From positions 248,001 through 312,000 of the forward strand of contig NZ_QPMJ01000004.1 of the NCBI RefSeq assembly GCF_003369835.1: a DNA stretch of 64,000 bases, given 5' to 3'. Below, piece by piece: positions 53,936 through 57,232 of this stretch. The position numbers were made by a program, and so were the translations under genes. This stretch comes from Halorussus rarus (GTDB lineage Archaea; Halobacteriota; Halobacteria; Halobacteriales; Haladaptataceae). Numbering within the stretch: the first letter of the stretch is position 1; every line of letters starts with the position of its first letter. Under the pieces are notes generated by a model. It ran no database searches, had not been told where the DNA came from, and saw only the letters and a program-made list of their open reading frames with translations.

Positions 53936-55108
53936 TCAGAACAGCGGGTCGAGTTCGCCGTCGTCGTCCTCGATGAGGTCCGTCGTGTTCCGGTCGCTCT
54001 CCTCGCGGATCTCGTCGATGTTGTCCTGGGTCTCGACCGCCACGTCCTGGAGCTCATCGACCCGGGGCACCTCCGAGACGCCCGACAGCAGCACGACGCC
54101 GGCGACCCGGTCGGCGCCGTCGACCGGGTAGTCGCCGCCCCGGACCTCCATCGAGCCGGTCTGCTCCTCGAGCCACTTGCGGCCCTTCTCGACGCCCTTC
54201 CGGTTGAGGTACTCCGGCGGGCCGCTGGCGACCAGCAGCGACCGCTCGGCGCTGTCGATCTCGCAGGGCAGCGTGAGCCGACCCAGCGCGGCCTTCCGGA
54301 CCAGGCTGGTGATGCGGTTGGTCGCGTGGGTCGAGTCGACCTCTCCGGTCCCGTCGCTCTTGAACCGCGAGAGCAGGCCGCCCGAGGGGTTCTCGACCGC
54401 CTCGGCCGCGTAGCCGATGGTCGAGACCCCGCCGGTGGCGAGCGTGTTGATGATCTCGCTGGAGTCGACCACGCTCTCGCCCACCTCGTCGCCCCGCGAG
54501 ACCTCGCCCGCCCCGAACAGCACCCCGAACCGCTCGACGATCTCCTCGTTGATGCGGTCGTAGCCCGAGCCGACGCTCTCGCCGGCCTCGCGCCAGGCGT
54601 CGTTGTCGAACACGAGGAGGTTGTCGACCTCGCGGACGAACGTCTGGAACGATCGCGCGGCGTTCAGCGTGTAGATGCCGCCCTCGTCGCGACCCGGCAG
54701 CACGCCCAGCCCGTAGACGGGTTCGGTGTAGATGCGCTTGAGGTACTTCGCGAGCACGGGCGCGCCGCCCGACCCGGTGCCGCCGCCCATCCCCGCGACG
54801 ATGAGGAACGCGTCGACGTCGTGAATAGGGACGTTGTCGACAGCTCCCTGGATCTCGTCGATGTCCTCCTCGGCGATCTCCGCGCCGAGTTCGTTGTCCG
54901 CGCCCACGCCGTGGCCCTTCACGCGGGCCTGGCCGATGAGCACCTGGTTCTCCTCGGGCACGTGGTCGAGGCCGACGAGGTCGGCCTTCGCGGTGTTGAC
55001 CGCCACCGCCGACCGCACGGCCTCGCCGCCGGTCCGGCGGTCGTACTCGATGAACTTGTCGACGATCTTGCCGCCGGCCTGGCCGAAGCCGATCATCGCG
55101 AGCTTCAC
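53936..55108 (-). CDS. cetZ: CetZ tubulin-like cell-shape protein
   Basis: A 390-residue tubulin/FtsZ-superfamily GTPase. The N-terminus MKLAMIGFGQAGGKIVDKF is the CetZ hallmark. The T4 signature GMGGGTGSGG lies at 106-115 and ESVGSGYDRINEEIVERF contains the T7-like region. CetZ proteins polymerise with GTP and control cell shape and motility in haloarchaea rather than division proper. The tail (LIEDDDGELDPLF) is acidic. It starts at GTG 55108. A 32-codon frame upstream ends in a TGA that overlaps this GTG. TATA-like ATTTAT lies near 55241-55246. Confidence 0.93.
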   Translation of the reverse strand: MKLAMIGFGQAGGKIVDKFIEYDRRTGGEAVRSAVAVNTAKADLVGLDHVPEENQVLIGQARVKGHGVGADNELGAEIAEEDIDEIQGAVDNVPIHDVDAFLIVAGMGGGTGSGGAPVLAKYLKRIYTEPVYGLGVLPGRDEGGIYTLNAARSFQTFVREVDNLLVFDNDAWREAGESVGSGYDRINEEIVERFGVLFGAGEVSRGDEVGESVVDSSEIINTLATGGVSTIGYAAEAVENPSGGLLSRFKSDGTGEVDSTHATNRITSLVRKAALGRLTLPCEIDSAERSLLVASGPPEYLNRKGVEKGRKWLEEQTGSMEVRGGDYPVDGADRVAGVVLLSGVSEVPRVDELQDVAVETQDNIDEIREESDRNTTDLIEDDDGELDPLF

Positions 55109-56343: not shown

Positions 56344-56586
56344 CTACGCGGCCGCGGAGACGTGCTCGCCGACTAACTCGACGATGGCGTCGACGTCGTA
56401 CTCGTCCTCGTCCTTGTCGAACACCTGGTCGCCGTCGACGCGCACCTTGAATACGCCGCTATCGCCGGTCACCAGCGCCACCGACTCGAGTCGCTCGCCG
56501 TACTCGGAGAGCAGCGCGTGCTGGACGTCCTGTGCTCGGTCGAGCATCCCGCAGGGGACGCAGAACTCGATTTCGACTCGCGTCAT
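56344..56586 (-). CDS. Rdx-family (SelW/SelT-like) thioredoxin-fold protein
   Basis: An 80-residue protein with the redox motif CVPC at 9-12 directly after the first strand (VEIEFCVPCGML). This is the Rdx/SelW layout with Cys instead of Sec. VTGDSGVFKVRVDGDQVFD forms the central hairpin. It probably acts in cytoplasmic redox balance; its partner is unknown. The ATG at 56586 is preceded by a TATA-like CTTTAAGG at about -28. Confidence 0.85.
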   Translation of the reverse strand: MTRVEIEFCVPCGMLDRAQDVQHALLSEYGERLESVALVTGDSGVFKVRVDGDQVFDKDEDEYDVDAIVELVGEHVSAAA

Positions 56587-56686
56587 GGTCGTTCGCACGT
56601 AGGGTCCGAACGTCCTTAAAGGAATGTGAGAACCCAGAACGCGGCCGGTCCACGGCCGCGCGGCTACAGCGTCACGGCCAGCCGTT

Positions 56687-57232
56687 TCACGCCAGGTCGG
56701 AGTCGCCGTCGAGCCGGTACACGTCGACCTCGCCGCCGGTGTCGGTGTCGCGGTCGGCAGCGGCGTCGACGGCGTCCCGGGCCAGTTCCTCGGCGTCGTC
56801 GGGGCTGATGCTGTGTTCCCGGCCGTCGAGGACGCCGAGCGCCAGTTGGGCGCCCGACCCGAAGGCGACCGCGTCGTCGCCGATGACGCCGCCGTCGCTG
56901 TCGATTCCCCGAATGCGAGGTGCGTCGTCGCCGTCACGGGCCGCGACGACGGCCTCGACGCCCTCCTCGGCCGCGATGTCGCCGGCGACGCTGGCGAGCC
57001 GGTCGATGCCCATCGGGTCGCCGTGCTCGGTCTCGTAGGACCCCACCTCGGCGTCGAGCCGTCGCCGGAACTCGTCGACGTCGCCACCGGGACCGACAGC
57101 GGCCGCGCCGACCCCGTCGAGGTCGAAGACGTGGCGCTTGGAGTCGCTCGACACGGTGCCGCCCTCGGTGAGCCGTCGGTCGCCCGCGAGCACGGCGTCG
57201 CCGTCCACCTCGATGCCCACGATGGTTGCCAT
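56687..57232 (-). CDS. Proteasome beta-subunit-like Ntn-fold protein, catalytic threonine missing
   Basis: A 181-residue protein with the proteasome/HslV fold start: ATIVGIEVDGDAVLAGDRR. Aligned without gaps to remembered bacterial and archaeal beta subunits, Ala2 falls on Thr1 and Asp18 on Asp17 (kept). Position 33 is His rather than Lys (SKRHVF). VGPGGDVDEFRRRL and VIGDDAVAFGSGAQLALGVL match later strands. There is no propeptide; after Met removal Ala is exposed. It may be an inactive scaffold or have another role. Such Ntn-type paralogs occur beside true proteasome genes in haloarchaea, though none is seen here. Confidence 0.75.
   Translation of the reverse strand: MATIVGIEVDGDAVLAGDRRLTEGGTVSSDSKRHVFDLDGVGAAAVGPGGDVDEFRRRLDAEVGSYETEHGDPMGIDRLASVAGDIAAEEGVEAVVAARDGDDAPRIRGIDSDGGVIGDDAVAFGSGAQLALGVLDGREHSISPDDAEELARDAVDAAADRDTDTGGEVDVYRLDGDSDLA

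Follow-up and report, generated by a model that had tools for sequence, protein, structure and literature searches.

A proteasome beta-fold protein without the catalytic threonine in Halorussus rarus and its haloarchaeal homologues

Heteromeric beta rings that include dead subunits are commonly described as a eukaryotic feature, crenarchaeal PsmB1 being the known case from archaea. Eukaryotic non-catalytic betas of the beta4/PSMB2 type have no propeptide and no Thr1, with the Met directly before position 1; they occupy a fixed place in a hetero-heptameric ring and do not keep Thr2. PsmB1 of Sulfolobus acidocaldarius (Saci0662) has been described as "seemingly catalytically inert" and is required to join the alpha rings, activity being conferred by Saci0909 (PMC4569737). 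The solved structure 6z46 represents the S. acidocaldarius 20S of alpha and Saci0662 only. Our crenarchaeal survey gathered 29 PsmB1 genes across the order (L152 and L155-L183), one of them 99% identical to Saci0662, and position 1 was found to be Ala in 24, Ser in 3 and Gly in 2, while Thr2 and Lys33 were each present in 29/29. The inert PsmB1 also keeps the acidic residue 17, as Glu. According to this survey, the loss of Thr1 with Thr2 retained therefore also marks a known structural beta subunit.

In HslV the initiator Met alone precedes position 1 and there is no C-terminal extension (PMC8665760). The main text of Fuchs et al. (2021) deals with 22 proteasome homologues, beta-fold prokaryotic paralogues that are mostly propeptide-less and of no known function, and reports that low-scoring matches were inspected for conserved active-site residues; a Thr1-less haloarchaeal clade is not described in that main text (PMC8665760). 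Similarly, no description of such a clade was found in the openly accessible papers searched.

The gene and the register of its active site

The window is the whole stretch of Halorussus rarus DNA that was analysed, 64,000 nucleotides in length. A minus-strand open reading frame, with its ATG at 57232 and its stop at 56687, encodes a protein of 181 residues that begins MATIVGIEVDGDAVLAGDRRLTEGGTVSSDSKRHVFDL (Table 1). This protein matches PF00227 over nearly its full length (E=5e-29; 101.7 bits, cut-off 22.4), and the score above the curated Pfam cut-off together with the beta-fold sandwich seen with AlphaFold (AF2) and Foldseek places it in the PF00227 fold. Against TIGR03634, the archaeal beta equivalog, it reaches 104.3 bits (5.8e-30) where the cut-off is 224, and thus remains below the equivalog level. 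The HslV profile matches under its cut-off (E=0.009) and, given also that Thr1 is missing, the protein does not belong to HslV. Its AF2 model is confident (pLDDT 91, pTM 0.87), and among solved structures Foldseek matches it best with 6z46 (TM 0.89).

The first-pass annotation had read the protein as a beta-like subunit with Ala at Thr1, His at Lys33 and Asp17 kept, aligned without gaps to known betas at its N-terminus. The alignment with the Thermoplasma acidophilum beta subunit is indeed gap-free across the first strands, from residue 3 past the Lys33 site. Residue 3 pairs with Thr2 in three family-profile alignments, namely those with the mature T. acidophilum beta, haloarchaeal PsmB and crenarchaeal PsmB1, which puts Ala2 at Thr1. 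In the AF2 model made for the genome's own active PsmB (pLDDT 89), strands run at residues 2-7, 12-17, 20-22, 25-28 and 34-38, and in that of the window protein at residues 3-9, 12-18, 21-23, 26-29 and 35-37. Compared by secondary structure and alignments, the two models differ by one residue at four of five strand starts (E3/E2, E21/E20, E26/E25 and E35/E34), and strand 2 ends at Asp18 in the window protein and at Asp17 in PsmB. Given the alignments and this constant offset, the register pairs Ala2 with Thr1, Thr3 with Thr2, Asp18 with Asp17 and His34 with Lys33. The assignment as a proteasome beta-fold protein with Ala for Thr1, His for Lys33 and a retained Asp17 is thereby confirmed. Of Thr1, Lys33 and Asp17, all expected of an active beta, only Asp17 is present, Ala and His34 standing at the Thr1 and Lys33 sites; the combination of a replaced Thr1 with a kept Thr2 is that of the non-catalytic PsmB1 type.

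An in-frame stop lies 1-3 codons upstream of the Met in six homologues, with that Met directly before position 1, which rules out a hidden upstream start or propeptide. The absence of a propeptide, as first annotated, was thus borne out, and nothing is left whose processing could expose a Thr.

Table 1. Features of the locus in the window and of the ftsY-linked loci in other genomes
Feature	Position or locus	Strand	Remark
Thr1-less proteasome beta-like gene	56687..57232	-	181 aa, single domain, N-terminus MATIV
Ala2 codon = catalytic Thr1 position	57227..57229	-	A/S/G/P in 65 homologues
Thr3 codon = beta-subunit Thr2	57224..57226	-	kept in 62/65
Asp18 codon = Asp17	57179..57181	-	kept in 64/65
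His34 codon = catalytic Lys33 position	57131..57133	-	R/H/K/Y/Q across homologues
Gly47 codon = oxyanion-hole Gly47	57092..57094	-	kept in 52/65
Ser126 codon = Ser129	56855..56857	-	S or T across homologues
Asp162 codon = Asp166	56747..56749	-	kept in 60/65
Thr165 codon = Ser169 position	56738..56740	-	Thr in 63/65
Rdx-family gene (CVPCG), downstream of the Thr1-less gene	56344..56589	-	also delimited as 56347-56586; conserved in all eight Halorussus loci read
CetZ tubulin-like gene, downstream of the Thr1-less gene	53939-55096	-	conserved in all eight Halorussus loci read
ftsY-linked loci of family code f5	L084, L089-L092, L094, L096, L099, L113, L115, L116, L120

Conservation of the homologues and probable loss of catalysis

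Genomes were searched at the levels of taxonomic family, class and phylum, which yielded 65 usable homologues. Position 1 is occupied by Ala in 24, Ser in 18, Gly in 16 and Pro in 7 of these, never by Thr or Cys, and position 33 by Arg in 33, His in 23, Lys in 7, and Tyr and Gln in one each. Lys33 occurs only beside Gly1 and Ser1 only beside Arg or His, so that Lys33 and a position-1 nucleophile are never found together in one homologue, a result that answers the column survey proposed at first annotation. The reference set of 47 active archaeal betas (24 haloarchaeal, 16 other euryarchaeal and 7 crenarchaeal PsmB2) has Thr1 together with Lys33 in 47/47. Given that 0/65 homologues hold this pairing, there is good support for the loss of classical Ntn chemistry, and we consider it highly probable that classical Ntn catalysis has been lost throughout the haloarchaeal Thr1-less homologues. 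Since this loss is common to all 65, it is not a matter of chance. Residues constant (Val49 and Gln53) or nearly constant (Asp114) in active betas are also not kept. Ala, Ser, Gly and Pro are residues before which an initiator Met is normally removed; position 1 therefore looks constrained by size and not by chemistry. Pro1 is found in two genera (L090-L092, L094, L096 and L099, beginning MPTVV, and L097, beginning MPTVI), and on the predicted sequences Ntn nucleophile chemistry is ruled out for these homologues.

The fold, Asp17, Gly47, Ser129 and Asp166 are shared with the active archaeal PsmB of TIGR03634, from which the Thr1-less protein differs by the missing Thr1, Lys33 and propeptide, by a shorter loop and C-terminus, and by its score of 104 against the cut-off of 224. 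Its H2-S5 loop is short, with 5-6 residues aligned to T. acidophilum 88-98 as against 8-11 in active archaeal betas, and beyond strand S11 the median tail length is 4 residues as against 17 in haloarchaeal PsmB; a further C-terminal strand and helix of the PsmB model are missing. Features in common with crenarchaeal PsmB1 are the beta fold (TM 0.89), the change of Thr1 to Ala, Ser or Gly, the kept Thr2 and the presence of active Thr1 betas alongside. PsmB1 differs from the haloarchaeal homologues in having Lys33 in 29/29 and a short leader at the N-terminus, in its complete H2-S5 loop and in a C-terminus that extends further. By analogy, we regard the structural PsmB1 (Saci0662) as the closest functional parallel of the window protein. 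The resemblance to eukaryotic beta4/PSMB2 lies in the missing propeptide and Thr1 and the Met directly before position 1, and that to HslV in the lone initiator Met and the missing C-terminal extension; HslV, unlike the window protein, has Thr1/Lys33 and a partner, HslU, and its sequence match is marginal.

Distribution, genomic context and descent

Among the genomes sampled from the class, 49/391 have the gene, with 50 copies at 138 bits or more, and the next-best gene, at about 118 bits, has Thr1. The window's own taxonomic family has the gene in 26/28 genomes, one copy with an internal deletion. L031, from an incomplete genome (62%), is a single 151-codon frame from which the H1-H2 helices, some 55 internal residues, are missing, perhaps through faulty assembly. 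The 295 genomes of the phylum gave no member beyond the haloarchaea, and in them the best non-haloarchaeal matches reach at most 104 bits and begin at profile position 3, like active betas. The length of the homologues is conserved (median 178 aa), and close pairs of Thr1-less genes give dN/dS values of 0.18-0.42 compared with 0.17-0.40 for pairs of active psmB, a pattern that indicates purifying selection of a strength comparable with active psmB. Two alpha genes and two canonical beta genes with normal Thr1 are also present in the window genome; given these canonical genes and the psmB-like dN/dS, the Thr1-less gene is to be seen as an extra maintained paralogue and not as the decayed sole copy. 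With dozens of related haloarchaeal genes showing the same loss, the sequence record identifies the Thr1-less proteins as maintained, putatively non-cutting relatives of the proteasome specific to haloarchaea.

The copies in Halorussus, Haladaptatus and Halomicrococcus lie on replicons of 0.27-0.56 Mb and are mostly annotated as "20S proteasome subunit A/B"; in other lineages the gene is often on the main chromosome. In two genomes, near-identical copies occur twice on one replicon (L011 and L034 on the 427 kb contig NZ_CP119810.1, and L025 and L035). In the window and at seven further Halorussus loci, the Rdx-family and CetZ genes lie 3' of the gene in the same orientation, and no conserved psmA, psmB or AAA+ unfoldase neighbour was seen at the loci read. 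In 12 loci of family code f5, spread over several genera, the gene lies 3' of an rpl31e-eIF6-prefoldin alpha-ftsY cluster and in its orientation, and srp54 usually comes next. The gap from the BLAST-aligned end of ftsY is about 50-130 bases in five of these loci, no more than about 70 bases in four, and 0.6-1.3 kb in others. This linkage may reflect a connection with protein synthesis and targeting, or it may only be a permissive insertion site.

A careful tree, built without column 1, places the Thr1-less homologues beside haloarchaeal PsmB (99/99) and as sister to a Thr1-bearing paralogue in L122 (95/88), on a long stem branch of 1.7 changes per column; the estimates for this stem span 1.56-1.7. 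This paralogue (L122:5001-5582), the closest active relative in the tree, is a third Thr1/Lys33 beta in the same genome as L045. The AU test leaves room for a clade that joins the homologues with crenarchaeal PsmB1 (p=0.134), and such a clade came out slightly ahead in a quick tree. A loss of Thr1 independent of PsmB1 is thus favoured on the tree; given that the AU test allows the joint clade, we do not simply claim separate descent from haloarchaeal PsmB. A viral origin was ruled out, as even the closest structures from viruses are far removed (best TM about 0.74).

Possible roles of the haloarchaeal protein

The first-pass annotation had left three options, a dead ring member, a regulator or an enzyme with a new active site. 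Of these, the third found no positive support. The most likely reading, to which we give about even chances, is that the haloarchaeal pseudo-beta serves 20S rings as an inert partner of beta type or as a regulator; for the window protein, the parallel with crenarchaeal PsmB1 makes a place in the ring, or a regulatory one, plausible. By sequence and model, the protein belongs to a haloarchaea-specific beta subfamily that has permanently lost the Thr1/Lys33 machinery and the propeptide. The mature chain, probably minus its initiator Met, would sit in beta positions of, or bind to, a 20S of the genome's active PsmA/PsmB, and such an inert chain could dilute or reshape the active sites and so affect proteolysis. 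The inert PsmB1 in Sulfolobus and the beta4-type subunits in eukaryotes would be the model parallels. Against this reading stand the shortened loop and C-terminus, the change of Val49, Gln53 and Asp114, and the lack of a conserved psmA, psmB or AAA+ unfoldase neighbour at the loci read.

The main alternative, to which we give a lower but still appreciable probability, is a stand-alone pseudo-proteasome, in which the dead protein would assemble by itself, free of alpha, into a ring or small oligomer in the manner of HslV or BPH, and serve as a scaffold or binding chamber. Given that the loop and the C-terminal elements help to hold the canonical 20S layers, their shortening and loss make a separate oligomer possible. 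The missing propeptide, the short H2-S5 loop and the absent C-terminal strand and helix all agree with this, such features being associated with compact group I homologues by Fuchs et al. (2021; PMC8665760). The strong divergence along the stem points the same way, and the position of the f5 gene beside ftsY and srp54 may point to a task close to protein synthesis. Nevertheless, the sequence is far nearer to the archaeal beta (TIGR03634, 5.8e-30) than to HslV (0.009). It can further be speculated, at rather long odds, that this is a third, alpha-independent machine of the proteasome fold, a non-proteolytic ring or chamber derived from PsmB by shedding its catalytic residues, propeptide and 20S contacts, which one lineage would have recruited into a ribosome/prefoldin/SRP-receptor operon, where it would handle nascent or targeted proteins.

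An enzyme with altered chemistry, using Ser1 or another residue as nucleophile together with Arg or His33, is unlikely. Ser1 is present in 18/65 homologues, and Asp17, Ser/Thr129, Asp166 and mostly Gly47 are kept. Against this reading, position 1 is Ala, Gly or Pro in 47/65, the window protein included, Pro1 is incapable as an Ntn nucleophile, and the fact that Ser1 never stands alongside Lys33 weakens the case for the Ser1 homologues as surviving enzymes. Inert PsmB1 keeps both Thr2 and an acidic residue 17 (Glu), so the conservation of these residues is no sign of activity.

That Thr3 is the true nucleophile, exposed after removal of Met-Ala, is very improbable, even though Thr3 is invariant in a 43-sequence alignment. 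The three profile alignments and the AF2 offset of one with the active PsmB place it at Thr2 and rule out the register shift, and Thr2 is as conserved in the active betas (47/47) as in inert PsmB1 (29/29); moreover, three homologues have Val or Ile at that position, and Lys33 is lost. Least credible is a decaying pseudogene or gene-calling artefact, which would account for the loss of the active site and for the absence of the gene from most sampled haloarchaea but is already contradicted by 65 homologues of conserved length, their dN/dS values and the confident fold.

For annotation, a correction is called for, as genes labelled "20S proteasome subunit A/B" could be miscounted as peptidases. 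If true, the conservation of a dead beta paralogue among haloarchaea would add a further instance, perhaps an independent one, of such a subunit in organisms with good genetics. It would thereby offer direct access to the question of why cells keep non-cutting proteasome subunits.
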